From: an uncultured Pedosphaera sp.
GTDB lineage: Bacteria; Verrucomicrobiota; Verrucomicrobiia; Limisphaerales; Pedosphaeraceae
Assembly (NCBI GenBank): GCA_903918755.1
Contig: CAIXFN010000079.1
Span: 1 to 64,000, forward strand
Direction of reading: 5' to 3'
DNA length: 64,000 nt
Of the stretch, positions 16,430 to 58,907 are shown piece after piece; within the stretch, counting starts at the first letter, position 1, and each line of letters starts with the position of its first letter. Made by a program: the position numbers and the translations under genes. The notes under the pieces were generated by a model. That model did not search any database. It was not told the DNA's origin and saw only the letters and a list, made by a program, of their open reading frames with translations.

Positions 16430-16478
16430 AGGGGTATATTTGCGTGAGCCGGCGGGCTGTGCTATTATCGTCCCAGTG

Positions 16479-32567: not shown

Positions 32568-34094
32568 ATGAGTGATACGATGGCTCCCGTTCTGGTCGCC
32601 GGCCAATGGCGCAACAGCAACTCGGTTGGTTCCTTTCCGGCGGAAAACCCCTCCCTCGGCGAAGCGTTGCCGGGGTTATACCCCGTGTCCTCGCCCACGG
32701 AAGTGGAGGAATGCATTGTCGCGGGCGCGCAGGCGGCGGAAGCCTTGCGGAACGCCAGCGGAGCGGCGATCGCGGATTTCCTGGAGGGCTATGCCCAACG
32801 CATTGAAGGTCGCGCGCTGGAATTTGTCGAATTGGCGCACGCCGAAAGCGGCCTGCCGAAGGCACCCCGGCTGAAGGATGGCGAATTGCCACGCACCACG
32901 GATCAATTACGACAGGCAGCCAAGGCCGCGCGGGACGGCTCGTGGCGCCGCCCGATTCGGGATGAGGCCCGCAATATATATTCTATTCTCGCGCCCCTGG
33001 GTGGCCCGGTAGTGGTCATTGGACCCAACAATTTTCCGTTCGCGTTCAACTCCGCCGCCGGCGGGGATTTTGCCGCGGCCATTGCGGCGCACAACCCGGT
33101 CATCGCGAAAGCCAATACCGCGCATCCGGGCACGACCCGCCTTTTTGCCGAGTTGGCACTCGAAGCGGCCATGGCCGCCGGACTGCCGCCGGCCACCGTG
33201 CAGATGATTTACCGGACCCCGCGCGAGGTCGGGTTGAAGTTGGTGGCCGATCCCCGGATCGGGGCGACGGCTTTCACCGGTAGCAAGGTGGCCGGGATGC
33301 AGTTGAAAGAGGCGGCGGATCGCGCCGGGAAGCCCATTTACCTGGAAATGTCGAGCGTGAACCCGATTGTCATCCTGGAAGGCGCTTTGACGGAGCGCGG
33401 CGAGGCGGTGGCGACGGAGTTTTTCGCGTCCTGCACGATGGGAGCAGGCCAATTTTGCACCAATCCCGGTTTTATCATCGTCCCGGACTCCGCCGCCAGT
33501 AAGGCGTTTGCGGCCGCTGCGCAAGCCAAGTTTGTGGCCGCCACCCCGGGAGTCTTGCTGGGAAAAAGCGGTCAGGCCAATCTTACGGCCGCCGTGGCCA
33601 CGCTCCAACAGCACGGCGCCAAGCTCGTCTGTGGTGGGGCAGCCCTCCCGGGGCCGGCGTATCGGTTTGCCAATACCTTGCTCAGCGTCACCGGAGCCGA
33701 ATTCCTCCAGCACCCGGAAGCGCTGCAGACGGAGGCTTTTGGTCCCGTCGCCTTGCTTGTTTGGTCCCGTGATACGGGGGAAACCGTGCGGATTCTCCAG
33801 CAGCTGGAAGGGAATCTGACCGGCACGATCTACTCCGATACCACCGGCCGGGATGACGCGGATTATGCTGTCATCGAACCGCATCTGCGCCAGCGGGTCG
33901 GCCGGCTGATCAATGACCGAATGCCCACGGGCGTCACCGTGAGTGCCGCCATGAATCACGGCGGGCCTTTTCCGGCCACGGGACATCCCGGCTTTACCGC
34001 CGTCGGATTGCCCACGAGCATTGCCCGCTTCACCGCGTTGCAGTGTTACGACAATGTCCGCCCGAACCGGTTGCCGGCCGGACTGCGACTTTGA
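32568..34094 (+). CDS. Alpha-ketoglutaric semialdehyde (2,5-dioxovalerate) dehydrogenase
   Basis: This 508-residue aldehyde dehydrogenase has the catalytic Cys near 297 (GAGQFCTNPG), the general-base Glu near 261 (YLEMSSVNP) and the cofactor-binding segment PNNFPFAFNSAAGGDFAAA. The MSSVNP and TNPGF context is typical of the KGSADH subgroup, which oxidises 2,5-dioxopentanoate to 2-oxoglutarate with NAD(P)+. That is the last step of hydroxyproline, L-arabinose and glucarate pathways. As first gene of a five-gene operon with hydroxyproline epimerase, D-amino acid dehydrogenase and a DapA-like deaminase, hydroxyproline is the likely source. The next gene starts 22 bases on. Confidence 0.9.
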   Translation: MSDTMAPVLVAGQWRNSNSVGSFPAENPSLGEALPGLYPVSSPTEVEECIVAGAQAAEALRNASGAAIADFLEGYAQRIEGRALEFVELAHAESGLPKAPRLKDGELPRTTDQLRQAAKAARDGSWRRPIRDEARNIYSILAPLGGPVVVIGPNNFPFAFNSAAGGDFAAAIAAHNPVIAKANTAHPGTTRLFAELALEAAMAAGLPPATVQMIYRTPREVGLKLVADPRIGATAFTGSKVAGMQLKEAADRAGKPIYLEMSSVNPIVILEGALTERGEAVATEFFASCTMGAGQFCTNPGFIIVPDSAASKAFAAAAQAKFVAATPGVLLGKSGQANLTAAVATLQQHGAKLVCGGAALPGPAYRFANTLLSVTGAEFLQHPEALQTEAFGPVALLVWSRDTGETVRILQQLEGNLTGTIYSDTTGRDDADYAVIEPHLRQRVGRLINDRMPTGVTVSAAMNHGGPFPATGHPGFTAVGLPTSIARFTALQCYDNVRPNRLPAGLRL

Positions 34095-34116
34095 TTTTTA
34101 ACTACTCCCCAACCAA

Positions 34117-35409
34117 ATGAGATACGCCCCCATACCGTCCGGGATGTTCACCGGCCACCGCAATCGCCTGGTGAGCTTGTTGCAACCCAATTCGCTGGCC
34201 ATCGTCAATACCAACGATATCCTGCCGACCAATTCCGATGCCACGCTGTTGCTGAAGGCCAGCTCGGATTTGTTCTACCTCACGGGTATTGAGCAGGAAG
34301 AAAGCATCCTGCTCCTCTATCCGGAGGCGCACGACGAGAAGTTCCGCGAAATTCTGTTTCTCCGGGAACCCAACGCCCTGCTCGAAACCTGGGAAGGGCA
34401 CAAGCTGACGAAGGAAGAAGCCAAAAAAATTTCCGGCGTCGCGCGCGTGGAATGGCTCTCGGAATTCAATTCGTTCCTCCACCGGCTGATCCTTGAGGCG
34501 GATCATGTTTACTTGAACTCGAACGAACACAAACGCGCCAACATCGTCGTGGAAACGCGGGAAGCGCGGTTTGTGAAATCGGTCATGGAACGTTACCCGC
34601 TCCATGATTACCAACGGCTGGCCCGCTTGATGCACCGGTTGCGCGCGGTGAAGTCCGAGCCGGAATTGGCCTTGTTGCAGGAGGCCTGCAACATTACCGA
34701 CGCCGGGTTCCAACGCGTTTGCCGCATGCTCAAGCCCGGGGTTTCAGAGATGGAGGTGGAAGCCGAGTTTGCTCATGAATTCATCCGGCGCGGCGGGCAA
34801 TTCGCCTACAACCCCATCATCGCCACCGGGGCCAATGCCTGTGTGCTGCACTACGTCGAAAACGACAAGGTGTGCCGCAAGGGGGAACTCCTGCTTCTGG
34901 ATGTCGCGGCGAGCTATGCCAATTACAACTCGGATCTCACGCGCACGATTCCCGTCAGCGGCCGTTACACGCGGCGGCAAAAGCAGGTTTATAACGCGGT
35001 ATTGCGGGTCATGCGCGCCGTGAGTGCGGCCGCGGTTCCCGGGAAGCTGCCGAAGGATTGGCAGAAAGAGGCGGAATCGTTCATGGAAAAGGAACTGGTG
35101 GATCTGGGCCTGCTCAAGCTGTCTGATATCAAGAAGCAGAACTCGGACAGTCCGGCGTTGAAAAAGTATTTCATGCATGGCGTCGGTCACCCGCTGGGTC
35201 TGGACGTCCACGATGTCGGTCTGACCGTCGAACCCATGCAGGCCGGCTGGGTCCTGACCGTCGAACCGGGCATCTACCTGAAAGAGGAAGGCTTCGCGGT
35301 GCGGCTGGAAAACGACATCGTGGTGCAGGAAGGCGGCAATGTGGATTTGATGGCCGGAATTCCCATTGAAACGGACGAGATCGAGGCCCTGATGAACGCA
35401 GCTTCTTGA
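34117..35409 (+). CDS. Xaa-Pro aminopeptidase (M24B)
   Basis: This 430-residue pita-bread metallopeptidase has an N-terminal creatinase-like domain (1-170). Its catalytic domain carries the five metal ligands: Asp in LLLDVAASY and Asp in NSDLTRT, His in MHGVGHPLGLDVHD, Glu in TVEPGIYL and Glu in RLENDIVV. Such enzymes release an N-terminal residue preceding proline and could also act before hydroxyproline. Its position inside the hydroxyproline operon, ten bases before the deaminase gene, suggests it frees imino acids from collagen- or extensin-like peptides for catabolism. Confidence 0.93.
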   Translation: MRYAPIPSGMFTGHRNRLVSLLQPNSLAIVNTNDILPTNSDATLLLKASSDLFYLTGIEQEESILLLYPEAHDEKFREILFLREPNALLETWEGHKLTKEEAKKISGVARVEWLSEFNSFLHRLILEADHVYLNSNEHKRANIVVETREARFVKSVMERYPLHDYQRLARLMHRLRAVKSEPELALLQEACNITDAGFQRVCRMLKPGVSEMEVEAEFAHEFIRRGGQFAYNPIIATGANACVLHYVENDKVCRKGELLLLDVAASYANYNSDLTRTIPVSGRYTRRQKQVYNAVLRVMRAVSAAAVPGKLPKDWQKEAESFMEKELVDLGLLKLSDIKKQNSDSPALKKYFMHGVGHPLGLDVHDVGLTVEPMQAGWVLTVEPGIYLKEEGFAVRLENDIVVQEGGNVDLMAGIPIETDEIEALMNAAS

Positions 35410-35419
35410 TAATTAATTT

Positions 35420-36340
35420 ATGAGCAAACCTTACTGGCAGGGAGTGTTTCCCGCCATCACCACGCAACTGAAGAAAGATCAATCGCTGGATTTTGACGCC
35501 ACCGCGCGGCACGTGGAGGCCCTGCTGGCTTCCGGTGTCACCGGCATCGTTTTTCTGGGGTCTCTCGGGGAAAACCAGCCCTTGCGGGGCGATGAAAAAC
35601 GCCAACTCATGGAAGCCATGGTGGGCGTCGTCAATGGCCGGGTGCCTGTCCTCAGCGGCGTGGCGGAAACCAGCACGGCGGAAGCCTGCCGTTACGTGCG
35701 GGACGTCGAAGCCCTCGGGGCCGATGGTTTCATGCTGATGCCCGCGATGCTTTACAAGGGGGATCCGCGGGAAACCATGGTGCATTTTCGGACGACCGCC
35801 AAGGCGACCGGGCTGCCGATCATGCTCTACAACAACCCGCTCTCCTACGCGAACGACATCACCCCGGCCATGTTTGCCGAAATGGCGGACGTGAAGAATT
35901 TCGTGGCCTTGAAGGAAAGCTCGGGCGACGTCCGCCGCATCACGGATTTGCACAACGCCGTCGGCGACCGTTATGCCTTGTTCACCGGCGTGGACAACCT
36001 GGTGCTCGAAAGTGCCGTGCTCGGCATCGACGGCTGGGTGGCCGGCAGCGGGATCGCGTTCCCGGCGGAGAATCAATATTTCTGGGAATTGACGCGCGCC
36101 GGCGAATGGGTGAAGGCGCGGGAGATGTACCGCTGGTTCAAGCCCTTGCTGGATCTGGATGTCAGCACCAAGTTTGTTCAGTATATCAAACTGGCGGTGC
36201 AGGAATGCGGTCTCGGCAGCGAAGTGGTCCGGGCCCCGCGCCTCACGATCACCGGCGCGGAGCGCAAACACGTCCTGAAGGTGATCCATGACGGGATTGC
36301 CGCCCGCCCCAAATTGCCCAAGCTGGCCAAGCGGAAATGA
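35420..36340 (+). CDS. DapA-family lyase/deaminase, probably 1-pyrroline-4-hydroxy-2-carboxylate deaminase
   Basis: This 306-residue TIM barrel has the Schiff-base lysine at Lys165 (FVALKESSG) and the general-acid Tyr137 (MLYNNP). The second-strand motif GSLGEN replaces the GTTGE of true dihydrodipicolinate synthases, so it is not DapA itself. In hydroxyproline operons a DapA-like protein deaminates 1-pyrroline-4-hydroxy-2-carboxylate to 2,5-dioxopentanoate, and the neighbours supply the steps on both sides. The stop overlaps the epimerase start (ATGA). Substrate is inferred from context. Confidence 0.85.
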
Positions 36341-37266
36341 ACGTGCTGAAAAAGGTTGGCATCATTGATTCCCACACCGGGGGCGAACCCACCCGGGTGG
36401 TCGTCTCCGGGCTGCCGAACCTCGGCGGTGGCCCCGTGGCGGAGCAGTTGCGGGTCTTCCGGGAGCAACACGATGGCTTCCGTTCGGCCGTAGTAAATGA
36501 ACCACGTGGTTCCGACGTCCTGGTCGGTGCGTTGCTGCTCCCGCCCCAGGATCCCACCTGCGTGGCGGGCGTCATCTTTTTCAACAACGTCGGCTGTCTC
36601 GGCATGTGCGGCCACGGCACGATCGGGTTGGTGAAGACCCTGGAGTATCTGGGCCGAATCCAGCCGGGCACGCATCGCATCGAGACCTGTGTGGGCATTG
36701 TATCCGCCCTTCTGGCGGCGGATGGCAGTGTTTCCGTGACCAACGTGCCCAGCTACCGCAAAGTCAAAGCGGCGACGGTCCAGGTGCCCGGGATTGGTCC
36801 CGTGAGCGGCGACCTGGCCTGGAGCGGCAACTGGTTCTATTTGATCGAACAGCATGGCCAGGTTTTGGAACTGGCCAATGTCGAAAAGCTGACGGATTAC
36901 ACCTGGCGGGTGCGTCAGGCGGTCAATTCCCAGGGCTACCCGGAAGTGGACCATATTGAATTGTTCACTCCCTCGCCCAGCCCCGGTGCGCACAGTCGCA
37001 ATTTTGTGTTGTGCCCCGGCAAAGCCTACGATCGTTCGCCCTGCGGCACGGGAACCAGCGCCAAACTGGCCTGTCTCGCCGCGGATGGCAAACTCGCGGA
37101 AGGCGATACCTGGGTCCAGGAAAGCATTATTGGCAGTCGGTTCACCGGCAGCTACCGGCGGGCTGGGGAGCAGATTATTCCCACGATCACCGGCACCGCC
37201 TTCGTCAATGCCGAAGCAACGCTGTTACTCGACGATCAGGATCCGTTCTGTTGGGGCATCCGTTAA
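36337..37266 (+). CDS. 4-hydroxyproline 2-epimerase (proline racemase family)
   Basis: This 309-residue two-lobe enzyme has both catalytic cysteines: Cys91 in GMCGHGTIG and Cys236 in SPCGTGTSA. Two cysteines mean epimerase or racemase. The related trans-3-hydroxyproline dehydratases replace the first with Ser or Thr. It would convert trans-4-hydroxy-L-proline to cis-4-hydroxy-D-proline, the substrate of the FAD enzyme encoded six bases downstream. The start overlaps the upstream deaminase stop, so the operon is translationally coupled here. Confidence 0.92.
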
Positions 37267-37272
37267 GCAATC

Positions 37273-38526
37273 ATGTCGAAAGAGATTATTATTGTCGGCG
37301 GGGGCGTCATCGGCTTGTCCACCGCCTATTACGCGGCGCGCAAAGGCTGCCGGGTGACCGTGGTAGACCGGAACCCGGAGCAGCGCGAGGGTTGCTCCTT
37401 CGGCAACGCGGGCATGATCGTTCCCAGCCATTTCATCCCGCTGGCCGCGCCCGGCATGGTCGCCTTGGGTTTGAAGTGGATGTGGAATCCGGAATCGCCG
37501 TTTTACATCAAGCCGCGACTGAACCTGGACTTGTTCCGGTGGGGCTGGAAGTTCTGGCAGGCGGCCACGCCTGAGCACGTGCGCCGCTCCGCGCCGTTGA
37601 TCCGCGATCTGAGCCTGGCCAGCCGGGCCTGTTTCGAGGAACTGGCCAAATTGCCCGGCAACGATTTCGGCCTGGTCCAGAAGGGCTTGGTCATGCTCTG
37701 CAAGACCGAAGCCGCCTGGGAGGAAGAAGCCCACACCGCGGCGCAGGCCCAAGCCTTGGGCATTCCGGCAGAGGTTCTGGATGCCCGGCAGACGGCCAAG
37801 TTGGATCCCAAAGTGACCATGGATGTGCACGGCTCCGTGTACTTCCCCAAAGACTGCCACCTGACCCCGCAGCGTTTCATGGCTGGGTTGAAGCAACAGT
37901 TGGATTGGCATGGCGTGAAATTTTTGTGGCACACGGAAGTCACCGGATGGCGGACCGAGGCTGGCAAGATCGCCGCGCTGCAAACTTCCAAGGGCGATCT
38001 CACCGGTGACGAATTTGTGATCTGTGGCGGTTCGTGGTCGCCTTCGGTGGCCCGGGATCTGCGGTTGAATATTCCCCTCCAGGCGGGCAAGGGTTACAGC
38101 CTGACGCTGTCGGAACCCCGCCAATTGCCGGATATCTGCGCCATTTTCTGCGAAGCCCGCGTGGCCGTGACGCCCATGGGGAAAACCTTGCGGATTGGCG
38201 GCACGATGGAAATTGCCGGCCTGAACGAGGACATCAATCCGGCGCGCATCCGCGGCATTACCAACGCCGTACCCAAATACTATCCGGAATTCAAAACCAC
38301 GGATTTTGCCGGCATCAAACCGTGGCGCGGTCTTCGTCCCTGTTCCCCGGACGGCATGCCCTACATGGGCCGCACCTCCCGCTATACCAATCTGGTGGTG
38401 GCCACCGGACATTCCATGATGGGTCTGAGCCTGGGCCCCATCACCGGACAATTGATGGCCGAAGTCCTGACCGGCGGCACCCCCGCGATCGATCTCCAGT
38501 TGCTGAGCCCGGATCGTTACGCCTGA
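37273..38526 (+). CDS. D-amino acid dehydrogenase, probably cis-4-hydroxy-D-proline dehydrogenase
   Basis: This 417-residue DAO/DadA-type flavoprotein has the FAD Rossmann motif IIIVGGGVIGLSTAYYAA (residues 5-22), DRNPE at the end of strand 2, and the C-terminal ATGHSMMGLSLGPITG nucleotide/substrate segment. It would oxidise cis-4-hydroxy-D-proline to 1-pyrroline-4-hydroxy-2-carboxylate, handing electrons to the respiratory chain. It is the last gene of the operon. The assignment to hydroxyproline rests on the epimerase and deaminase next to it. It converges with the GH39 gene 25 bases away. Confidence 0.9.
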   Translation: MSKEIIIVGGGVIGLSTAYYAARKGCRVTVVDRNPEQREGCSFGNAGMIVPSHFIPLAAPGMVALGLKWMWNPESPFYIKPRLNLDLFRWGWKFWQAATPEHVRRSAPLIRDLSLASRACFEELAKLPGNDFGLVQKGLVMLCKTEAAWEEEAHTAAQAQALGIPAEVLDARQTAKLDPKVTMDVHGSVYFPKDCHLTPQRFMAGLKQQLDWHGVKFLWHTEVTGWRTEAGKIAALQTSKGDLTGDEFVICGGSWSPSVARDLRLNIPLQAGKGYSLTLSEPRQLPDICAIFCEARVAVTPMGKTLRIGGTMEIAGLNEDINPARIRGITNAVPKYYPEFKTTDFAGIKPWRGLRPCSPDGMPYMGRTSRYTNLVVATGHSMMGLSLGPITGQLMAEVLTGGTPAIDLQLLSPDRYA

Positions 38527-38551
38527 GTCCGACGCTCGGAACGGGCGCGGC

Positions 38552-40303
38552 TTACCACGTCAATTCCAGCAGCGATACGCCCTGTCGCGGCAGCTCAAAC
38601 GTAAGCGTCGCCGCTCCCTGACTGACGTTGACGGGCGATTCGGGCGTCAATTCCGCCAATCCACCGGCTTTTTCCAATTGTTCAAATTGTGTTGGGGTGG
38701 GGGATTGGGGCGACCCCAGCCGTTTCCAGGCCCCGAACGCGTTGCTGTGCTCTTCATCGATTCGATAGTGCTGAAGCTTCGCCTTCCCGGTGGGAATCGG
38801 GAGATCGGCAAGTTGCACGGTCACGGCCGCCGCCGGCCCCGAAACATCGTCATCATGGTAATGCCAGACGAGCACGCACAACTGGTGATCGGCCAGGCTG
38901 GCGAGAGCTGCCACATCGGCTTCCCCGCGGACGCCCTCGCGCAGGAGCGCATCCAGTTTGACCGCATGATCACTGTCCACCGGTAAACGCTCACCACTCA
39001 TTTTGCTGAACATCCGGAACACATTGAGCACCGGCTTGTCCAGACCGTTGCTGGCCAGCGACCGAAACCCTGCGAAATACGGCTGGTCCTCGAACTCGAA
39101 GGCCCACGTCAGTGCGCCTTCCAGATTCACACCGTGACGCTCCATCAACTCGTGCTTCCGGGCAAACGCGGCCGCCGTGTAACTGGAATACATGGTGCCG
39201 TTCCGATACGCCAGCGACGCTCCCTGGCAGGCGGCGCACCCTTCCGGATCGGATTCGCCGATCACGATGGGCTTGCTTTTCAACTCCGGGAACGAGGCGA
39301 TCAGTCGGAACCCATCGTCCACGTTACGGAGTTGATTGGCCATTCCCATGCGCACATGCCCATTCGTGGAAACCGGCGAGCCTTTGGCATGAAAGGAAAT
39401 GAAGTCCAGCGGCGTGCCCACCTGGCCGGTGGCGTAATTGGTGCCCCGCAGGCAGTGCTCCAGAAAATCCCGCGAGAATTTCCCGCCTGGACCCGCCGAA
39501 TCCGGCCCGCCGACCCGCGCCGTGGGCAACGCCCGCCGCACGCCTTCAATCGCGTAATCGTGCAGTTTGAGGAATTCCGCAGGGCTCCCATGCCAATACC
39601 CGATGTTCGGTTCGTTCCAGACTTCCCAATACCAGGATTCCACCTCCGCCCGGCCGTATTTCTCCACGCAGTGCTTCGTCCATTGGTAAACCAGCTCGCC
39701 CCACTTCGCATAATCCTTGGGCGGATACGACCAACCGGTGTAGATGTCGTTGTACTTGGCGGTGGGGTTCCAGTGATGTTGGTAGGGCTCGGGCTTCGCC
39801 GAGAGCGCCTCGGGCATAAACCCGATCTCCGCGTAGGGCCGTACGCCGCGCTGGAGGTAGGTGTCGAAAATCCCGTCCAGGATGGTCCAATTGTAAACCG
39901 GGGTGCCCGGAGGATTTTCGGTGTACGCCCCCGTCGATCCCCATTTCAAGGCGGCCGTGCCATCCCCGGACGTGAGTAGATTATGCGCGCGGAAATAAAC
40001 GTTGCGCGGTTGCAAAGCACCCAGTTCCCCGATGAGTTTGCGACCGTGCTTCATCGTCGCATAATTCGGCTCATCCGCGCCGAAAAACCGCCAGATCGGA
40101 TGCAGCGGAGGGTGCGCGCCGCCTGCCGTCACCCGGATGTTTACGGCGAATGCGTTCGTGTCCGCCGCGCCGACGGTGAGCGAGCCTCCGGCGCCGCCCA
40201 GGAGCAGCCCCAGCAAAAGCTGGCGCCAAGGGATGGCCAAAAAGATATGTTTGCCCCGCGTACGGTCATGCGCGGTGCCGGGAATTTTGCGCCAGGGATT
40301 CAC
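38552..40303 (-). CDS. Secreted GH39-like glycoside hydrolase (beta-xylosidase type)
   Basis: This 583-residue protein, read from the GTG at 40303, has a hydrophobic signal segment (about 32-52). A TIM barrel follows, with the acid/base Glu231 in EVWNEPNIGYW and the probable nucleophile Glu350 in IGESDPEG, the clan A arrangement of GH39. A C-terminal beta domain follows (about 440-583). GH39 enzymes release xylose, arabinose or uronic acids from glycan side chains. Longer in-frame starts up to 40573 lack coding character. The next genes, rhamnose mutarotase and GH127, suggest action on plant cell-wall polymers. The true start is uncertain. Confidence 0.82.
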   Translation of the reverse strand: MNPWRKIPGTAHDRTRGKHIFLAIPWRQLLLGLLLGGAGGSLTVGAADTNAFAVNIRVTAGGAHPPLHPIWRFFGADEPNYATMKHGRKLIGELGALQPRNVYFRAHNLLTSGDGTAALKWGSTGAYTENPPGTPVYNWTILDGIFDTYLQRGVRPYAEIGFMPEALSAKPEPYQHHWNPTAKYNDIYTGWSYPPKDYAKWGELVYQWTKHCVEKYGRAEVESWYWEVWNEPNIGYWHGSPAEFLKLHDYAIEGVRRALPTARVGGPDSAGPGGKFSRDFLEHCLRGTNYATGQVGTPLDFISFHAKGSPVSTNGHVRMGMANQLRNVDDGFRLIASFPELKSKPIVIGESDPEGCAACQGASLAYRNGTMYSSYTAAAFARKHELMERHGVNLEGALTWAFEFEDQPYFAGFRSLASNGLDKPVLNVFRMFSKMSGERLPVDSDHAVKLDALLREGVRGEADVAALASLADHQLCVLVWHYHDDDVSGPAAAVTVQLADLPIPTGKAKLQHYRIDEEHSNAFGAWKRLGSPQSPTPTQFEQLEKAGGLAELTPESPVNVSQGAATLTFELPRQGVSLLELTW

Positions 40304-40467
40304 ACGTAATGAGTGGTCGGGAATGCGAATGAAGTCAAACAAATAGGCGGGATTCCGCCCTCCCAAAGCGTCATCCCGCCTGGCCGGCCACTGTCCAGAA
40401 GCCGACAAATGATTATTGACCCGCAGCAAAATTAATCTGGAAAACCTGGCTGTCAACCGAGGTGGAA

Positions 40468-40483
40468 TACTACTTTGGTAGTA
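40468..40483. promoter_or_regulatory. Candidate operator TACTAC-N4-GTAGTA
   Basis: TACTAC, TTTG, GTAGTA form a perfect 6+4+6 inverted repeat. The arms and spacing are those of the BlaI/MecI-type operator (TACTAC-N4-GTAGTA). It lies about 165 bases before the GH39 start and 300 before rhaM. No BlaI-type repressor is encoded in the window. Confidence 0.5.
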
Positions 40484-40525
40484 GTCCGGTGGAGCAGGGG
40501 GGGCACTCTCCTCCGGCACCATCCC

Positions 40526-40600
40526 TTTCCCCAACGCCAACGGCGTTGCGCCATCTAGCCCAGCGGTTGGCACGAGTGCCTACCCTGGGTTATGGGAAGT
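40526..40600. repeat. Hairpin-rich dispersed repeat candidate
   Basis: AACGCC-AAC-GGCGTT at 40533-40547 is followed by an imperfect hairpin from AGCCCAGCGGTTGGC (40557-40571) to GCCTACCCTGGGTT (40578-40591). Sequences of this style are scattered in intergenic gaps of PVC-group genomes, but no second copy of this one is in the window. Confidence 0.45.
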
Positions 40601-40786
40601 TAATTCCGCAACCCTGAATTGGGTAGTGGCAATTTCGTCCCGGAGACCCTGTGATGAACCAAATCCGGCGCTTGCGAATCCGGTTACACAATTGGTCACC
40701 CCCTCTGGATCGCCTCGCCTGCAATCGGCTCGCCTTTTCACCGAATCGCTCCCATCCTCCCTCCCGGCCCCCTGAGCCCTGAAATT

Positions 40787-41122
40787 ATGATTCGCAAAGC
40801 CTTTGTCATGACCGTCCACCCCGGCACCGAGGCGGAATACGCCCGCCGACATAACCCGATCTGGCCGGAACTGGAGGCGGTGCTCCGCGCGCACGGTGTC
40901 CACACCTACTCCATCTTCCTGCATCCGGAAACGCGCCAATTGTTTGCCTATGCCGAAACCGCGGATGAGGAACGCTGGCAGACCATCGCGCAAACCCCGG
41001 TTTGCCGCCGTTGGTGGGCGCACATGCGGGAACTCATGCCCACGCATCCGGATGACAGTCCGGAATCCGTGGCCTTGCGCGAGGTCTTCCACCTGCCGTC
41101 GCCCGGGATCACTGATCCTTGA
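40787..41122 (+). CDS. rhaM: L-rhamnose mutarotase
   Basis: This 111-residue dimeric alpha/beta-barrel protein interconverts the alpha and beta anomers of L-rhamnose so that it can enter catabolism. The family landmarks are present: [20 protein letters not shown] with catalytic His22, [12 protein letters not shown], and [13 protein letters not shown] near the C-terminus. Length is typical. It lies between GH39 and GH127 genes and overlaps the 3' end of the GH127 gene by 14 bases tail to tail. This fits use of rhamnose-containing plant pectin or glycoprotein side chains, though rhaA, rhaB and rhaD are absent here. Confidence 0.92.
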
Positions 41123-43994
41123 GCCAGACGATGGATTGATAACCGTTCAGGCGCGCCCGCCCGCGACCCCGTCGGCCCGCTCCCGCGGCGGGGGCAGGGG
41201 CCGGCCGGTTCGTGCTGCCTGCCGCTCCCGCGGAGAGCGAAGCCCCGGAATAATCGATCCCGGAATCCCCGCCAGCCGGGTTCGCCGCGGCCGCCGCCAG
41301 GTCGCGTCGATTGTCACGGGCGTAATTGGGAATGGCGAGTAGGGGCGAGCCATTCGTGTAGGCCCCGCGGATCACCAGGACCCCACCCAGCAGGTTGGAC
41401 CGCCACTCGGTGGTCAACGGCGCGGAGGGGCTGAGCACCTGGTCCACGTTTTGATCCGGGCTTTCGACATTATACACGAGCGGACCGTATCGCAGCGCCA
41501 CCCGGCCGCGATCCGCGGCCACCTGGTCCACCGCCTTGACCCGCTGCACGGCCAGCGGCAGGGTCAGTTCAATCTTGTCCCCTGCCTTCCAAGTGCGCGT
41601 GAAGACGGCATAGCCACGGTCAATGACCGGGGTCACCGGCACACCATTCAACGCCAGCGCCGTCACACCCTTGACCTCCGGCGACGCGGAATACAGGCTG
41701 CTCACCTGCCGGTTCGGCAGTCGCACTTTCAGTGTGAACGCGCTTTCCTTGGCCGGATTGACCGTGATGGCCACACGATTGTCCCACGGATAATCCGTGG
41801 CCTGCACCATCTCCACTTCCGTGCCGGCAATGTCCTCCAGCCGGACAGTGCTGCCGATGAACAGGTTCACGTAAATGCTGTCCGCTCCCCGCGCATACAT
41901 CCAAGTGGGCAGCATCAGTAGCGTGCGGGGGATGTTGCCCACACAACACGGGCAAACGTGCCAGGGCGTACGGGCTTCGCCCACTTCCAGCGGGTTGGTG
42001 TAGTCAAAATTGTTCCCCGCCAGGTCCACGGAGCCCAGCAGGGCGTTATACAGCGTTTCCTCATACAAATCCGCATACTTGGCATCCTGATAGGCCAGGT
42101 TCATTTTGTATTGGAAAAAGACCTCTCCGCAACTCGAGCACGCCTCGCAATAGGAATTGTTGCGCAGGGAAAAATTCGGTCCAAATCCCTCCGAAGTCTC
42201 GCCGCTGCCCACGCCCCCAGTCAGGTAATACTTCTTGTTCACGATGTTGTCCCACAGGGACATCACCGCGCTTTGGTAGTCGATGTCGTGGGTCTCCACC
42301 GCCACATCCGCCATCCCGGAGTAGGTGTACACCGCCCGCACCGCATGGCCCACCGCCTCATATTGCTGCACCACCGGCAGGTGGCTCTGGTCGTATTCGC
42401 TGCCGCCCGTGCGGCTATCTAGCAGGAACTTGGCGAGTGTAATGTACTTCTGCCCATGACCCGGACCTTCCATGTCGTTGACGAACCGGCCAAATCGGAC
42501 GAGGGCCTGCTCCATTTCCTGGTGCCCGTCAAACCACGTCTGCTTGGGCGCCGGCCCGATGTGCTCGCACCAGCAATCCGCGAGCTTCTTGGCCGCGTTG
42601 TACATCCGCGCATCCTTCCGTCCGGTCAGCATGTAATGATTGATTGCGGATTCGAGGAAATAGCCCGCCACATAACCCTCGTGCTCCGTGCGGTATTGCG
42701 GCGACCAATGCCGCGCGCCCCGGCTGTCCAGCGTGAACCGCGTCTGCAAATACCCATCCGGCTCCTGCGCCGACAGAATTTTGGGAATCCAATCCTCCAG
42801 CGTCGCCCGCATCCGGTCCTGCGCCGCGAGCGTTTCCGCATCCCCTTGCGCGTCCAGCATCAGGGCGATACAGATGGCCTCCACCGTTTGATGCACCCAC
42901 GCGTTGGAGAACGGATACCCTTTGTGTCGACCGTGCGGCTGCCCCGCCAGCGCCTTGCCCGCCTCGATGAAATTGTCGATCCCGCCCTGAGTCAGGTTCG
43001 TGTTGTTGATCTCGTCAATGCAATGTGGGATCCAATGGGTGATCAGCGCCTTTGTCCGCCCGTTCCACAGCGGGCTGTTGAGTTTGAAATTCTTGGTGTT
43101 CACCGCGTCCAGTTGCGTCGCCGGCGGCGCGGCCACCACCCGCACCTGCAGAGTGGATTGACTCTCCAAACCGCCCTCCCGACCGGTCAGCGCCAGGACA
43201 TAATCCCCGGGCGCGGCAAAAGTCGCCGTGGTGACCGCCGCATGCGCGTCCGCAAAAGCCACTTCCCCCGGCCCGGAAACCCGGCTCCACGTCAGTGTCG
43301 CCGCGGCATTCGTCAACGCCGTGGACGCCAGCGATTTCACAGTCCCGTTCAAATACGTCTTCCCACCCACGATCACATCCCGATCCACCCCCGCCACCAC
43401 CTTGGGTGGAAATGCGGGCGATTTTCCGGTATCGATGACCCGCCATTCCAAGAGCCCCGTAGCGATCTGCGGCGGCCCTTCGGAATCGATTTCCAGCCGG
43501 AGTTTGGCCGTCTCCACCGGATCAAACGTGGTTACATTGAACTGGTTCCCGGACACTCCGAGCCCCTGCGCATTGGCCACCGGGACGAAAGCCGTCCCAT
43601 TCCAGTACAGCACGCGATACCCCTTCGGCGCATGAATCCCCTGGCCATCGAGCCACCAGTAAAGTTCGATCTGCGCCGTGCTGATCGGCTGGGACCAATC
43701 GTATTCGACCCATTCTGTGCCATTGCGCGGCCAATTCCCGTACGACCCATGACGATCATCCCGCGAATTGCGCGGTGTGAACCCGTCATTGAGCGCCACG
43801 AGGGAAGTATCCCCCGAAACATAAGAACTGCTCGCCACCGCGACCAGCGCCAGATTGGCCCCGGCCGGCCGGTTGGGAGCGGATTGCGGAGCCGGCGTTG
43901 GTAAAGGTGACGGCAACGGTAAGGGCGTCGGCGCCGCCCCGGTCGAAAAGCCCAGTAATACCAGCCAGCCCAGAAAAGCGATTTTGGGATTCAT
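41109..43994 (-). CDS. Secreted GH127 beta-L-arabinofuranosidase with discoidin-like domain
   Basis: This 961-residue protein has a signal peptide (1-20) and a Pro-rich linker, a discoidin/F5-8-type domain (about 45-190), an Ig-like domain (about 205-290) and the GH127 (DUF1680) catalytic domain (about 300-870). The zinc-thiolate site is visible: Glu617 and Cys619 in YCEAC, and Cys683-Cys684 in CPCC. The matching Cys in characterised GH127 enzymes is the nucleophile. The founding enzyme removes beta-L-arabinofuranose from hydroxyproline-linked chains of extensin, which is notable beside the hydroxyproline operon. The C-terminal tail is Ala/Gly-rich. Confidence 0.9.
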
Positions 43995-45543: not shown

Positions 45544-46041
45544 ATGACCCCTATAGCCTTCCCTCAACTGCTCGACACCATCCGGGCCAGGCAAAGCTCG
45601 TATCACAAGCTCACGGTCCTGGCCGGTGAAGCGGGGTCCGGCAAGACCAGGTTAATCCGGCAGGTCGCGGCGGAACTCGATTTTCCGCTCATCAACCTCA
45701 GCTTGCTGCTCAGTCAGCGTTTGCTCAGCCAAAACCAACGCCAACGCTCCCTCAACGCCGAATCGGTTGCCATCGACGTGATTGACGAGCACTTCAAATC
45801 TGGCCTTTGCCTCGACGACACAGAGTTGCTTTTCGACAAAACGCTCCGCACCAACCCGCTGGTGTTTCTCCAGAACATTTCCCGCAACCGCCACATCGTG
45901 GCGACTTGGAACGGCGGCGTCACCGGTGGCGAACTGCGTTTCGGCTACCCCGGCCACCCGGATTATTTCAACCAAAATTTCAATGGCTACCCCGTCGTTT
46001 CTGTCGCCGAGGACAGATTCCAAGTCCATCTGACCACATGA
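45544..46041 (+). CDS. brxF: BREX type 3 P-loop protein BrxF
   Basis: This 165-residue ATPase has Walker A GEAGSGKT at residues 28-35. ALCLDDTELLF-like text near 90-100 (LCLDDTELLFD) fits Walker B, and a conserved Asn-rich stretch with HIVATWNG lies near 120. BrxF is the small AAA-like protein specific to BREX type 3, and its job in the defence cycle is not known. The ATG at 45544 is the start that matches family length. The in-frame extension to 45253 is not protein-like. The stop overlaps the brxC start (ATGA at 46038-46041). Confidence 0.88.
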   Translation: MTPIAFPQLLDTIRARQSSYHKLTVLAGEAGSGKTRLIRQVAAELDFPLINLSLLLSQRLLSQNQRQRSLNAESVAIDVIDEHFKSGLCLDDTELLFDKTLRTNPLVFLQNISRNRHIVATWNGGVTGGELRFGYPGHPDYFNQNFNGYPVVSVAEDRFQVHLTT

Positions 46042-49000
46042 ATTACAGCGAACTGATCCATTTTCAACCCATCGAGTCGGTCATTGAGCTCCGCCAGGCC
46101 AACAGGAGCGACAAGGCGAAGGACCTGGTCCGCACCTACGCCATTTCCGCTGACATGGCCGAGCGCCTCTGTGGTCTGGTCTTCCCGCAGCTTCAATACG
46201 CCAAGCCCCAGGACAACCGCGGCCTGCTCATCGTCGGCAACTACGGCACCGGCAAATCGCATTTGATGTCCGTCCTCTCCGCGGTCGCCGAAAGTGAGGA
46301 AATGGGGGCGCTGCTCTCGAACGAAAAGGTCCGCCAAGCCGCACCGTCCATCGCTGGCAAATTCAAGGTCATCCGGCTGGAAATCGGCTCCACGGAAATG
46401 TCCTTGCGCGCCATCATCACCGGCCACGTTGAGCAGGCGCTGGCCGAGTGGGGCATAAACTATCAGTTCCCCGCGGCGGACAAAGTTCGTGAAAATAAGA
46501 CTTCGCTGGAGGCCATGATGGATGCCTTCCACCAGAAGTTTCCCCATCATGGCCTGCTCCTCGTGGTGGATGAATTGCTGGATTACCTCCGCAGCCGCAA
46601 GGACCAGGCGCTCATTCTGGACCTCGGTTTCCTCCGCGAAGTCGGCGAGGTTTGCAAGGATCTGCGTTTTCGCTTCCTGGCCGGCGTGCAGGAAGCCATT
46701 TTCGATAGCACCCGATTTGCGCATGTGGCCGACAGTTTGGGCCGCGTCAAAGACCGCTTCCAGCAGGTGAAAATTGCCACGACGGACGTGAAGTTCGTCG
46801 TGTCGCATCGGCTCCTGGAGAAATCCCCCGCGCAACTGGTCGCCATCCGCGAATATCTCACCCCCTTTGCGAAGTATTACGGCAATATGACCGAGCGGTT
46901 GGACGATTACGCCGCCCTTTTCCCCATTCATCCCGACTACGTTGAGACGTTCGAGCGCATACCAATCGTCGAAAAGCGGGGCGTGCTGCAAATCATTTCC
47001 TTTGCGATAAAACAACTCGTTGGCCAACCCGTGCCCACCGACCGACCCGGCATCGTTGCCTTTGACAGCTATTGGAAGGCGCTCAAGGATAACGCCGCCC
47101 ACCGGTCGCTGCCGGAAGTCAAAGCCATCATCGAATGCAGCACCACTCTGGAGGACAAGGTGCAAAGCGCTTTCCCGAAAAAGACCTATAAACCAATGGC
47201 GGTCCGGATCATCGAAGGGCTTTCCGTCCACCGCCTCACCACCGGCGACGCGCCGATCGGTCTGACGCCGGAGGAGCTCCGCGACAAGCTTTGCCTCTTT
47301 CACTCCGGCGTGGCAGAAATGGGCGGAGACCCGGCCGATGATCTCCTCTCCGTCATCGAGAACACCCTGCGCGAAATCCACAAGACTGTCAGCGGCCAGT
47401 TCATTTCAACCAACAAGGACAATCGCCAGTATTTTCTCGATCTCAAAAAGACCGACGACTACGACGCCCTGGTCGAGAAACGCAGCGAAACGCTCAGCGA
47501 CGATGTCCTCGACCGCTATTATTACGACGCGCTCAAGCAGGTGCTGGAATGCACCGACATCCCGACACACATCACCGGCTTCCAAATCTGGCAGCACGAA
47601 ATCGAATGGTCGGACCGCAAGGCGGGCCGGCTTGGCTACCTGTTTTTCGGCGCCCCGAACGAGCGCTCGACGGCAGTGCCCACGCGGGAGTTCTACCTGT
47701 ATTTTATCCAGCCGTTCGACAAGCCCGATTACACGGACGAAAAACGCGCGGATGAGGTCTTTTTTCGGCTCACCGGCAAAGACGATGAATTCACCCTGAG
47801 CTTGAAGCTCTACGCCGCAGCGCTCGAACTCGGCTCCATTTCATCCGGTCTCAAAAAGCAGACCTATGAGAAAAAGGCGTTGGAGCATCTCGGGAACCTG
47901 ACCAAATGGCTGCGCGACCGCATTTTTCAGGCCGTTGAAGTCACCTATCAGGGTTCGCGAAAGAAGTTTGTGGAATGGCTCAAGGTGGCTGGCGGGGGTG
48001 GCACGTTAAACATCCGCGATGCCGTGAATGCCGTCGCGTCCAAATGCCTGGGCGAACACTTCACCAACTGCGCCCCGGAGTATCCGCATTTCTCCACCCT
48101 GTTGACTTACGGCCAAGGCGGCAACGCACCCCAGGCCGCCCAGGAAGCCTTGCGCGGAATCGCGCAGCCTACTCGCACCAAGCAGGCGAATGCCATGCTT
48201 GATGCCTTGGAACTCCTCGACGCCGAAAAGATTGATCCTACGAAATCCCCCTATGCCCGGCACATTCTCGCCCTCCTGAAAGCCAAGGGCCAGGGGCAAG
48301 TCGTCAACCGGCCGGAAATCATCACAACGATGGAACCGGGCATTGAGTTCATGCTACCGGACAAGTTCCGCCTGGAACCGCTGTGGGTTTGCGTCACGCT
48401 CGCCGCGCTCGTTCATTCCGGCGATGCCGTGCTGGCCATTCCCGGTGCGAAGTTCGACGCTACCAGCCTCGGTACACTCGCCACCACGCCGGTGGCCGAC
48501 CTGCTGAATTTCAAACATGTCGAGCGGCCCAAGGATTGGAACATCCCTAGTCTCAAAGCCCTGTTCGAATTGATGGAGCTGTCGCCCGGCCAGGCCGTGA
48601 TGGTCACGCAGGGAAGCGTTGAGGACGTCCAACAGCTTCACAAGGTCATCAACGAGCGGGTCGAAAAACTGGTCCGAGCCAACCAGCAGTTGGCCAGCGG
48701 CATCCCGTTTTGGGGGCAAAACATTTTCACCGACGCCGAGGTGGAGAACTTTTCCTCCCTGCTCGTAAGAGCCAAGGAGTTCCTCGAGAGTCTTCAAGCC
48801 TACAACACGCCCGGCAAACTCAAGAATTTCAAATACGACGCCGAGGACATCAAAGGCTATGCGACCACGTTCGCCCGGTTGAGAGAGGTCGAGCAGTTGC
48901 AGTCGTATTGCGCCGAGCTCGCGCAGTTCACGCAATATCTCTCCGCCGCTGAAGGCATACTGCCCGAAGGCCATCCGTGGGTGGCTGAAAGCAAACAGAA

Positions 49001-49748
49001 GCGGACCGAGTTGCTAACGGAAATCCGCAGGCCCGCCCAGCGCGAATCCGCAACCTTCAAAGCCGACGCCTTGAAACAGTTGAAAAAACTCAAGACAGGT
49101 TACGTCAGGACGTATCTGGGGCTTTACCAGAGAGCCCGCCTCAGCCTCGCCCAGGACAAGGAAAAGAAAGACCTGCTCGGCGATTACCGCCTCAAGCAGC
49201 TGCGCCGGCTCGCCACGATCACGTCCATCAATTCCGTCCAGTTAACCGAGTTCGATATTCAAGTCGGCAAACTCCGCACCGGCACGGTGCTCACAGATAA
49301 AGACTTGGATAACGACCCAAAATCTCCAGACGGATTCTTACCCGGCATGGAGGACACGAGCGTATCCGCCGACATGCGTCTCGCAGGGCTCAAAACCGAA
49401 CTCGAAAAGATTCACAAAAGCTGGACGAAAAGCCTGCTCAACGATCTTGCCGACCCGGTCATCCAGGCGAATCTTGAGTTGCTAAAAGCCCCGCAGAAAA
49501 AGCTGCTCCAGGATTTCGCGGCGGCCAAAGAACTGCCCGATGAAATATCCGCGGATTTTCTCACTGCCATCCAGCAGGCGCTGTCGGGTTTGGCGAAACT
49601 GCCCGTGCGCCTCGAAGATTTGAAAAAAGCACTGTTCCCTGACGGCAGCCCGGCCACTCCCGCCGAATTCAAGGAAAGGTTCACGGCTTATCTCGACCAG
49701 ATTCTAAAGGGCCGCGAGGCCGCCAAGATTCGGCTGGTCATTGAATAA
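46038..49748 (+). CDS. brxC: BREX ATPase BrxC (DUF6079-type)
   Basis: This 1236-residue ATPase has Walker A GNYGTGKS at residues 67-74 and Walker B LLLVVDELLDYL near 172-183. Long helical stretches follow, through residue 1200. Large P-loop proteins of this kind (BrxC/PglY) are core to all BREX types and probably assemble with PglZ and the methyltransferase on DNA. The ATG at 46038 is fixed by its overlap with brxF and by the family start (ELIHFQPIESVIELRQA). Base composition (about 58% GC in a hand-counted 60-base stretch at 48001) matches the host, unlike the next gene. Confidence 0.92.
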   Translation: MNYSELIHFQPIESVIELRQANRSDKAKDLVRTYAISADMAERLCGLVFPQLQYAKPQDNRGLLIVGNYGTGKSHLMSVLSAVAESEEMGALLSNEKVRQAAPSIAGKFKVIRLEIGSTEMSLRAIITGHVEQALAEWGINYQFPAADKVRENKTSLEAMMDAFHQKFPHHGLLLVVDELLDYLRSRKDQALILDLGFLREVGEVCKDLRFRFLAGVQEAIFDSTRFAHVADSLGRVKDRFQQVKIATTDVKFVVSHRLLEKSPAQLVAIREYLTPFAKYYGNMTERLDDYAALFPIHPDYVETFERIPIVEKRGVLQIISFAIKQLVGQPVPTDRPGIVAFDSYWKALKDNAAHRSLPEVKAIIECSTTLEDKVQSAFPKKTYKPMAVRIIEGLSVHRLTTGDAPIGLTPEELRDKLCLFHSGVAEMGGDPADDLLSVIENTLREIHKTVSGQFISTNKDNRQYFLDLKKTDDYDALVEKRSETLSDDVLDRYYYDALKQVLECTDIPTHITGFQIWQHEIEWSDRKAGRLGYLFFGAPNERSTAVPTREFYLYFIQPFDKPDYTDEKRADEVFFRLTGKDDEFTLSLKLYAAALELGSISSGLKKQTYEKKALEHLGNLTKWLRDRIFQAVEVTYQGSRKKFVEWLKVAGGGGTLNIRDAVNAVASKCLGEHFTNCAPEYPHFSTLLTYGQGGNAPQAAQEALRGIAQPTRTKQANAMLDALELLDAEKIDPTKSPYARHILALLKAKGQGQVVNRPEIITTMEPGIEFMLPDKFRLEPLWVCVTLAALVHSGDAVLAIPGAKFDATSLGTLATTPVADLLNFKHVERPKDWNIPSLKALFELMELSPGQAVMVTQGSVEDVQQLHKVINERVEKLVRANQQLASGIPFWGQNIFTDAEVENFSSLLVRAKEFLESLQAYNTPGKLKNFKYDAEDIKGYATTFARLREVEQLQSYCAELAQFTQYLSAAEGILPEGHPWVAESKQKRTELLTEIRRPAQRESATFKADALKQLKKLKTGYVRTYLGLYQRARLSLAQDKEKKDLLGDYRLKQLRRLATITSINSVQLTEFDIQVGKLRTGTVLTDKDLDNDPKSPDGFLPGMEDTSVSADMRLAGLKTELEKIHKSWTKSLLNDLADPVIQANLELLKAPQKKLLQDFAAAKELPDEISADFLTAIQQALSGLAKLPVRLEDLKKALFPDGSPATPAEFKERFTAYLDQILKGREAAKIRLVIE

Positions 49749-49765
49749 TACCTATTCCAAACAAT

Positions 49766-50644
49766 ATGACAAATCCCGCATTAGTAGCATCGAAGCAGAT
49801 CTCCCAGCTTGTTTGGCAGGTCTTCGATCTTGTCTCAGATATTTCTGAGATTGCTGAACCAACTGGCGTCGTGAACGAAGACAGGATTACCTATGAAATT
49901 CAACTTCGCAATGCCCTTGAGCGCGAGTTCCGGCTGATTTCTGCGACACTCGAGCATTTTGGGCTTAGAGACCAACTGGCTGAGTTGAGAGTAGGATTTG
50001 AAAAACTGACAGACAAAATTATTGCCTACGAATACGATGGTGAATCTGGGTATTGGTTCTCAACGACGCAGACATTCCTGAATGATTATCTCGATGTTAT
50101 CCGGCTTTTTCTGCCCGTTAATGATTCTAACACCCAAATGGCAGCGCTGGAAATTCTTGAGAATATGCTTCGCAGCACAGCAGTGTTGATGTCAAAGCAC
50201 GATTTGGTGCCCAAAAATGAGACCGAGGTAAATCGTTTCATGGAAACTTTTATCAAAGCCGCATTCCCCAAGGCTTTATATAATCCATCAGTTCCATCTG
50301 TCTTAAAATCATATCATCCAGAATTTGGCATACCTGAGCTCCAAGTTCTGATTGAATACAAATTTGCCGAAGACGAAGTCGAACTAAAAGCAGCCGTTGA
50401 CGGTGTATTAACAGATACCCGCGGATATTCGGGGGACGCACAGTGGAGATTTTTCTTCGCAGTTTTTTACTTAACAGATGCCTTCAGCACGGAGACGAGG
50501 GTGCGGGCGCATTTTGAGCAGTGTGGCGTACCTGATTCGTGGAGAATTATCGTTTTGAATGGAGCGGGCGGCCGAAAAAAGAAAAACATACCGCCTGTTG
50601 CTGCAGAAGTCCCAACCACTACGGTTACACCAATTGTCGCTTAA
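49766..50644 (+). CDS. Accessory PD-(D/E)xK nuclease-like protein inside BREX
   Basis: This 292-residue protein has a helical N-terminal half (1-170). Its C-terminal domain contains P190-E191, five residues, then E197-Y-K199 (IPELQVLIEYKF), the spacing of a PD-(D/E)xK nuclease core. The following QWRFFFAVFYLTDAF strand resembles the end of DpnII/MboI-like nuclease domains. The tail is polar. The gene is AT-rich (about 42% GC in a hand-counted stretch at 50221) against roughly 58-63% in core BREX genes, so it was added from elsewhere. It is not one of the six core BREX type 3 genes. It lies 17 bases after brxC and 6 before pglXI. Nuclease activity is inferred from motif only. Confidence 0.62.
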   Translation: MTNPALVASKQISQLVWQVFDLVSDISEIAEPTGVVNEDRITYEIQLRNALEREFRLISATLEHFGLRDQLAELRVGFEKLTDKIIAYEYDGESGYWFSTTQTFLNDYLDVIRLFLPVNDSNTQMAALEILENMLRSTAVLMSKHDLVPKNETEVNRFMETFIKAAFPKALYNPSVPSVLKSYHPEFGIPELQVLIEYKFAEDEVELKAAVDGVLTDTRGYSGDAQWRFFFAVFYLTDAFSTETRVRAHFEQCGVPDSWRIIVLNGAGGRKKKNIPPVAAEVPTTTVTPIVA

Positions 50645-50650
50645 GTTCCA

Positions 50651-53506: not shown

Positions 53507-53521
53507 TTTCGTATAGATAAT

Positions 53522-54913: not shown

Positions 54914-55440
54914 GTAACCGCCCTTCTCCTTGTGTCGTTGACACAAATGTCGTTCTCGTCGCCAACAGGTTGTCCAACGATGCTTCTGTTGAGTGTATTC
55001 AGACTTGTGCGCGCCGGTTGCGCGAGATTTGTAATGGCGGCCACGTTGTCGTGGATGACCTGATGCGTATCTTCAACGAGTACCGGAGCAAGACTCTCAG
55101 AAAGAAAGGGCAACGAGAGGCGGGAGATGAATTTGTGCTTTGGGTAATTACCAATCTTTGGAATCCAGATCGATGCACTCAAGTCAAACTCAACCCGAAG
55201 CAAACCGACGAGCAGGATTTTGATGAGTTTCCAGATCACGTCCATTTGAAAAGCTTTGACCGTTCCGACCGGGTCTTCGTCGCTGTGGCGAATGCGCACC
55301 CCAAACATCCAAAGATCCTTGCCGCCTGCGACACGGATCATTGGTTTCACCGAGAGGCATTGGCAGAGAGTGGCATCACTGTTGATTTTCTGTGCGAGGC
55401 CGATGTTCGCCGGCTTGCAAAGCAAAAGGGCTATGAGTGA
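54910..55440 (+). CDS. PIN-domain ribonuclease (accessory, probable toxin/effector)
   Basis: This 176-residue protein has the acidic residues expected of a PIN fold: Asp11 in VVDTNVVL, Glu57 in IFNEY, Asp120 in SDRVFVAVA and Asp141 in AACDTDHW. PIN proteins are Mg-dependent RNases and frequent toxins. No small VapB-like antitoxin is adjacent. Instead it is bracketed by an ATPase (ATGA overlap upstream) and an RNA ligase (8-base overlap downstream), an arrangement I do not recognise. The ATPase would be the likely controller and RNA the likely target (inference). Confidence 0.82.
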   Translation: MSNRPSPCVVDTNVVLVANRLSNDASVECIQTCARRLREICNGGHVVVDDLMRIFNEYRSKTLRKKGQREAGDEFVLWVITNLWNPDRCTQVKLNPKQTDEQDFDEFPDHVHLKSFDRSDRVFVAVANAHPKHPKILAACDTDHWFHREALAESGITVDFLCEADVRRLAKQKGYE

Positions 55441-58889: not shown

Positions 58890-58907
58890 TCCTTTTTGGA
58901 GAAAAAT

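Follow-up and report, generated by a model that had tools for sequence, protein, structure and literature searches.

A GH127 glycosidase gene beside a hydroxyproline operon in an uncultured Pedosphaera: a possible reduced cluster for the use of hydroxyproline-rich glycoproteins

Plant and algal walls contain abundant glycoproteins rich in hydroxyproline (Hyp), and arabinogalactan proteins are themselves rich in Hyp. Operons for trans-4-Hyp of the Pseudomonas/Sinorhizobium type encode an epimerase, a D-Hyp dehydrogenase, a deaminase and a semialdehyde dehydrogenase. To our knowledge, no complete bacterial route from the glycan of a Hyp-rich glycoprotein to the carbon of Hyp is known as a single locus. 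The HypBA1/HypBA2 cluster of Bifidobacterium longum includes a GH127 beta-L-arabinofuranosidase for Hyp-linked arabino-oligosaccharides (PMC7263609, PMC10850190), and a genome reconstruction of Latescibacteria led to the inference that extensin and arabinogalactan proteins are used via GH127 (PMC4454575). We analysed a stretch of 64,000 nucleotides (the window) at the start of contig CAIXFN010000079.1, from the 7.2 Mb genome of an uncultured Pedosphaera sp. of the Verrucomicrobiota (GCA_903918755.1), in which a GH127 gene and the epimerase gene of a Hyp operon are 3.8 kb apart. The association of these two elements is a recurring arrangement, found in other genomes of two phyla. We consider it somewhat likely that the window carries a pared-down form of a gene cluster for using Hyp-rich glycoproteins. 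In the literature searched, subscription journals and preprints aside, we recognised no description of a joint locus for GH127 and Hyp catabolism.

The Hyp operon (32568-38526, + strand) is made of five genes, with successive gaps of 22, 10, -4 and 6 bases. It opens with an aldehyde dehydrogenase (32568-34094; PF00171, 169 bits), probably the alpha-ketoglutarate semialdehyde dehydrogenase of the final step of Hyp catabolism; its best NCBIfam model is 2,5-dioxovalerate dehydrogenase, with a score far under that model's cut-off. Next come an M24 Xaa-Pro aminopeptidase resembling aminopeptidase P (34117-35409; PF00557 and PF05195), in which no signal peptide was seen and which scored 266 bits against the NCBIfam Xaa-Pro aminopeptidase model, under the cut-off of 465, and a DHDPS-family protein (35420-36340; PF00701, 183 bits), probably a pyrroline-4-hydroxy-2-carboxylate deaminase. 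The predicted trans-4-hydroxyproline epimerase (36337-37266) fell just under both NCBIfam equivalog cut-offs (426 bits versus 442 for 4-hydroxyproline epimerase, and 414 versus 450), and was far weaker against the models for proline racemase (206) and trans-3-Hyp dehydratase (179); PDB entry 4j9w was matched at 418 bits. The last gene encodes a predicted FAD-dependent D-hydroxyproline dehydrogenase of the DAO type (37273-38526; PF01266, 242 bits). The DAO, DHDPS-family and aldehyde dehydrogenase proteins belong to the expected families and follow the expected operon layout, but all three score under equivalog cut-offs, and the exact steps given for them are the probable ones. In the one genus-mate sampled (G001), the operon has a DHDPS-family gene at the same position and an aldehyde dehydrogenase 77% identical to that of the window.

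The GH127 gene (41109-43994, - strand) encodes a cysteine glycosidase matching PF07944 at 229 bits (cut-off 24.9), whose middle and C-terminal domains also exceed their cut-offs. From the N-terminus, the protein has a signal-peptide-like start, suggestive of secretion, an F5/8C-like stretch, a weak PKD-like stretch, then the catalytic, middle and C-terminal domains. The initial annotation had credited it with a carbohydrate-binding-like domain; the F5/8C-like match was recovered, with a score under its cut-off. A similarity of residues 150-287 to HypBA2 was discarded, as we read it, by inference, as the PKD-like stretch. The closest solved chains are 6ex6 (345 bits), 4qjy (297), 5mqo (180) and HypBA1 itself (3wkw, 166). 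We take 6ex6 to be the Bacteroides thetaiotaomicron GH127 BT3674, and the catalytic and zinc residues of HypBA1 to be E322, E338, C340, C417 and C418 (Cys nucleophile, Glu acid/base, Cys3-Glu zinc site). Its sugar pocket is formed by H142, Y145, H194 and R273 (PMC10850190). All nine positions are kept in the window protein, and they are invariant in an alignment of eight sequences that includes it. The enzyme is therefore likely to be functional as a cysteine glycosidase; its sequence does not specify the beta-L-arabinofuranoside on which it would act.

Together, these genes suggest the following route. Outside the cell, GH127 would take beta-L-arabinofuranose off Hyp-linked arabino-oligosaccharides, and the exposed peptide would be cleaved and imported by means that we did not recognise in the window. 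The M24 aminopeptidase, provided that it accepts Hyp, would free it from X-Hyp peptides, and the epimerase would convert it to D-Hyp, which the DAO-type dehydrogenase, the DHDPS-type deaminase and the aldehyde dehydrogenase would turn into alpha-ketoglutarate. The initial annotation had also foreseen cutting of the peptide by the locus; if this occurs at all, it would be by the M24 gene inside the operon. Such a route supposes that the two blocks are expressed together. As to the substrate, sequence does not separate extensin, arabinogalactan protein or an algal Hyp-glycoprotein.

The neighbourhood was then scored in 320 genomes of the order, with GH127 orthologues called at E <= 1e-230 and Hyp epimerases at E <= 1e-70. 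Chance expectations were computed from genome sizes, with Poisson P values, and all P values treat genomes as independent. GH127 orthologues were present in 38 genomes, the epimerase in 173 and both in 23. Leaving the window aside, the two genes were within 10 kb of each other in 3 of the 22 genomes with both (expected 0.109, P 2.0e-4), and within 20 kb in 4 of them (expected 0.201, P 5.7e-5), at distances of 0.07 kb in G268 (64 bp, same strand), 3.5 kb in G207, 8.7 kb in G123 and 19.1 kb in G211. A scan of GTDB contigs, covering the best 80 of 572 GH127 relatives, found five whose 10 kb flanks include a homologue of the Hyp epimerase (L092, L095, L127, L115 and L144), L092 being the same contig as in G207 and L095 the same as in G123. 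An early comparison of 58 relatives, where the blocks lay on separate contigs in G002, G019 and G057, had seemed to refute a joint locus; it was overturned by these wider scans. When GH127-family genes of any clade were counted near Hyp operons, their number was not clearly above chance, the 25 genomes counted carrying 3 to 22 such genes each.

The second phylum is represented by 201 genomes from the genus of Sphingomonas jinjuensis, in which distances were taken by match coordinates. GH127 was found in 12 of these and a 4-Hyp epimerase in 89, and all 12 GH127 genomes had both (hypergeometric P 3.7e-5). Two of the epimerases were scored, at 517 and 508 bits, above the 4-Hyp epimerase cut-off of 376. 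The two genes were within 10 kb in 3 of the 12 genomes (G449, 5.4 kb; G320, 5.9 kb; G321, 9.0 kb), with a fourth, G384, at 14.6 kb. Eight further genomes, seven Alphaproteobacteria and one Massilia, were picked for carrying GH127. Both genes were present in five of them, two Asticcacaulis at 18.6 and 17.5 kb and three others with the genes on different contigs; linkage within Asticcacaulis was seen in two of the three genomes having both.

Several of these loci are fuller than the window. An operon-like array in G268 (L218), entirely on the + strand, comprises a second GH127, the GH127 orthologue, epimerase, DAO, an FAD protein, DHDPS and aldehyde dehydrogenase. On the - strand of G207 (L217) were found M24, an M90/ATLF-like HExxH protein, GH51, the GH127 orthologue, a second GH127 interrupted by a single stop codon, epimerase, DAO, FAD protein, aldehyde dehydrogenase and DHDPS, with a PAS-AraC regulator on the + strand. 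G123 (L247, L219) has two GH127 orthologues, DPP-IV, GH51, epimerase, DAO, FAD protein and, adjoining the Hyp operon, a fusion of 1265 amino acids (L219:265-4059, -) between a GH127-family protein and a cyclophilin-type peptidyl-prolyl isomerase. L127 combines GH51, two GH127, GH43 and a weak M90-like protein with epimerase, DHDPS and aldehyde dehydrogenase. The Sphingomonas loci L115 and L144 belong to Sphingomonas sp. Leaf412 and Sphingomonas jinjuensis; L144 contains one alpha-galactosidase (Melibiase_2), DUF5695, Ldh_2 and another GH127, and L115 two alpha-galactosidases (Melibiase_2) and a TonB receptor. In extensin, Hyp bears beta-linked arabinoses with an alpha-arabinose cap, and serines bear alpha-galactose; because of this structure, the predicted alpha- and beta-arabinosidases, alpha-galactosidase and prolyl peptidases of the fuller clusters fit extensin well.

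Two further families were encountered at these loci. Proteins with DUF5695 turn up repeatedly at both GH127 and Hyp loci, in two phyla (L248:6714-9722, -; L085:5855-8794, -; L144:18194-20950, +). Proteins of a family that we call HExxH535 adjoin GH127, S9 or Hyp genes (L064:11494-13101, +; L248:5076-6710, -; L219:4481-5662, -); no Pfam family matched them, and their metallopeptidase-like label rests on an HExxH-like motif noticed by visual inspection of L064.

We also surveyed 84 Hyp loci, namely the window (30001-56000), 19 plus 60 loci not picked for GH127 and four picked for it, with flanks often cut by contig ends. Among the 79 unpicked loci, M24 was present in 10, an S9 peptidase in 11 (7 strong) and a PAS-AraC regulator in 17. 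In several relatives, the regulator and Hyp epimerase genes are divergently oriented (for example L247:9502-10248, +, and L127:3108-3854, +); searched for as a shared regulator, it was not found in window positions 30001-56000. Conversely, 98 non-redundant GH127 loci, of which 97 scored as orthologue, contained another GH127-family gene in 29 cases, GH51 in 16, S9 in 12, HExxH535 in 10 and the epimerase in 6, the window being counted, with G123 making a seventh once the rest of its contig (L247) is counted.

In the window itself, two genes separate the blocks. A GH39 glycoside hydrolase gene (38552-40573, -; PF01229, 192 bits), with an uncertain start codon and a signal-peptide-like stretch, has beta-xylosidases as nearest solved structures (127 bits), and its stop is 25 bases from the end of the convergent Hyp operon. 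The L-rhamnose mutarotase gene rhaM (40787-41122, +; TIGR02625, 148 bits for a cut-off of 99.6; PF05336) sits between two genes of the - strand, GH39 and GH127, and its end overlaps the GH127 stop. Every gene named in the initial annotation was recovered at its given position: GH127, rhaM, GH39 and the full Hyp operon. Elsewhere in the window, a protein with a pro-kumamolisin activation domain (16440-19241) and an M13 peptidase (11158-13209) are encoded 13 and 19 kb away from the Hyp genes. Positions 45807-61350 are a probable phage-defence island, with a DUF6079 P-loop protein (weak BrxC match), a DNA methylase, an AAA ATPase, a helicase and a PglZ domain; GC falls to 0.49-0.52 near 50-56 kb, within it.

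A number of observations weigh against a joint function of the two blocks. As their genes lie on opposite strands and are convergent in places, the Hyp operon, GH39, rhaM and GH127 would form several transcription units by strand, not one. Neither GH39 nor rhaM was seen in any of the 97 other GH127 loci or of the 83 other Hyp loci, many of whose flanks are truncated where the contig stops; we rejected them as core members, and they are probably passengers or local accessories. Of the 22 order genomes with both genes, 18 have them on different contigs, in assemblies that are often fragmented, and co-occurrence per genome is not enriched in the order (23 of 38, Fisher P 0.49). No GH127 orthologue was found in G001, whose Hyp contig stops inside DAO. 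Two of the Sphingomonas genomes, G320 and G321, had prompted the search in that genus, and when they are excluded one genome of 10 has the pair at 10 kb or less (P 0.10) and two of 10 have it at 20 kb or less (P 0.017). A GH127-family gene was found in 2 of the 79 unpicked Hyp loci and a GH127 orthologue in none; over all 84 loci, 6 had a GH127-family gene (the window, three picked for GH127 and two others) and 78 did not. The NCBIfam model nearest to the window GH127 is aceric acid hydrolase, far under its cut-off. Finally, its nearest solved relative, 6ex6 (presumably BT3674), is associated in the literature with larch arabinogalactan, on which it acts together with exo-galactanases, rather than with extensin (PMC10850190).

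These points bear on two alternatives. The blocks could be chance neighbours here, the Hyp operon and its aminopeptidase living on free Hyp or collagen-type peptides while GH127, together with GH39 and rhaM, acts on pectin or arabinogalactan, so that the link seen elsewhere would not hold in this genome. The separate transcription units, the lack of recurrence of GH39 and rhaM, the different contigs and the far greater frequency of the epimerase (173 of 320) than of GH127 (38 of 320) all speak for this; the recurrence above chance placement in both Verrucomicrobiota and Sphingomonas, in one case operon-like, speaks against it, and we regard chance neighbourhood as rather unlikely, though a serious contender. 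Alternatively, GH127, rhaM and GH39 might be a small set for pectin or arabinogalactan side chains, freeing arabinose and rhamnose, with the Hyp operon unrelated. Such a set would suit a rhaM score above its family cut-off, the presumed arabinogalactan activity of the nearest GH127 relative and a Bifidobacterium GH39 described as acting on gum arabic. Within the part of the window's genes that was searched and annotated, we recognised neither a rhamnosidase nor any gene of a rhamnose pathway, and the idea partly merges with use of Hyp-rich glycoproteins when arabinogalactan proteins are the substrate; we find it quite improbable. The single extensin locus of the initial annotation thus survives in part: the blocks do neighbour each other in related genomes above chance and in two phyla, with additional arabinosidases and prolyl peptidases in fuller clusters, but in a minority of genomes and without GH39 and rhaM, and in the window the blocks are separate transcription units by strand. 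On balance, we judge it somewhat more probable than not that the link between GH127 and the Hyp operon holds in the window's own genome.

A further lead came from the peptidases of relatives. The DPP-IV protein encoded beside the Hyp operon of G055 (L085:1535-5854, -) contains a VHL beta domain (PF01847; human pVHL match, E 3e-8), and more DPP-IV-type S9 peptidases with this domain were found, several at Hyp operons (L299:10320-13328, +; L260:4960-7341, -; L106:14316-16847, +; and others). The domain was also found by phmmer in other loci. We aligned 17 VHL domains, leaving out L260 (identical to L208), the short second L303 hit, and L303:5828-7738 and L084:2311-4512, both of which were found with the second query only. 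Fourteen of the 17 sit in frames matching S9/DPP-IV seeds; L303 and L084 did not match, and L204 was not scanned. In pVHL, the Hyp pocket is formed by Trp88, Tyr98, His110, Ser111, His115 and Trp117 (PMC9528729). The equivalents of Trp88, Tyr98 and Trp117 are present in 17 of 17, Thr replaces Ser111 in 17 of 17, His115 is kept in 15, being lost only in L303 and L084, the two without an S9 match, and His110 in 12. The bacterial domains therefore appear to keep a largely conserved putative Hyp pocket. A weak three-sequence AlphaFold model of the domain (pLDDT 62.7) gave 50 of 50 listed PDB matches from pVHL-complex entries (best E 2.1e-6); a model of the full-length peptidase (pLDDT 60.6) was too weak for use.

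PF01847 was matched in 156 of the 320 order genomes, counted without a peptidase check and with some frames short (about 290 residues), versus 0 of 14 control genomes. Phylogeny being ignored, its presence is associated with that of the epimerase (107 of 173 versus 49 of 147; odds ratio of 3.2, P 4e-7) and also with that of the GH127 orthologue (33 of 38; odds ratio of 8.5, P 4e-7); in one family, f2, VHL matches occur with almost no epimerase. Of the 82 genomes with both positions among the matches listed, 13 have a VHL stretch no more than 10 kb from the epimerase, for about 0.3 expected. Of the 33 genomes with a VHL stretch and the GH127 orthologue, at least four (G057, G099, G227 and G211) have these two no more than 10 kb apart. 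In G116 and G245, the epimerase and DAO genes flank a VHL-S9 gene of the same orientation. The domain was not found in the window's genome or in its kin G001 and G002, so this lead concerns the system and not the window directly. In the literature searched, a VHL-peptidase at Hyp operons was not described; the one relevant paper reports, in the part available to us, a VHL domain in a marine bacterium, read as a tumour suppressor (PMC9002001).

A broader reading, which we judge slightly less likely than not, is that Hyp-rich glycoproteins are the target of a dedicated system present in bacteria from two or more phyla, in which GH127, GH51 and GH43 enzymes with alpha-galactosidases would strip the glycan, prolyl peptidases would cut the backbone and the Hyp operon would burn the product. 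In many Verrucomicrobiota, the VHL beta domain of a DPP-IV-type peptidase would read Hyp within the peptide, and the window would be a member with GH127 and the operon, and without the VHL peptidase. If so, the Hyp reader of animal oxygen sensing has a role in bacterial feeding as well, which would bear on the origin of the oxygen-sensing VHL fold and might offer bacterial Hyp readers as affinity tools for Hyp-proteins. The clusters of GH127 and Hyp genes suggest dedicated feeding on the tough Hyp-rich proteins of plant or algal cell walls; as they are compact and their enzymes named, the route is open to testing.

Compared with described systems, the window GH127 is nearest to 6ex6 (presumably BT3674) among solved structures, to which it adds the F5/8C-like and PKD-like stretches and a position next to a Hyp operon. 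The Latescibacteria study, as far as its accessible text goes, is a gene inventory sharing with our reading the GH127-based use of extensin, and describes no joint locus with Hyp catabolism (PMC4454575). The HypBA1/HypBA2 cluster of B. longum has GH127 in common with the window, down to all nine active-site residues, but serves for use of the sugar, and the portions of PMC7263609 and PMC10850190 available to us do not link it with Hyp catabolism. GH121 was not recognised among the window genes searched. With respect to the operons of the Pseudomonas/Sinorhizobium type, the window operon has probable counterparts of the four enzymes, to which it adds a built-in M24 aminopeptidase, and the operons of some relatives hold a VHL-bearing, DPP-IV-type peptidase.

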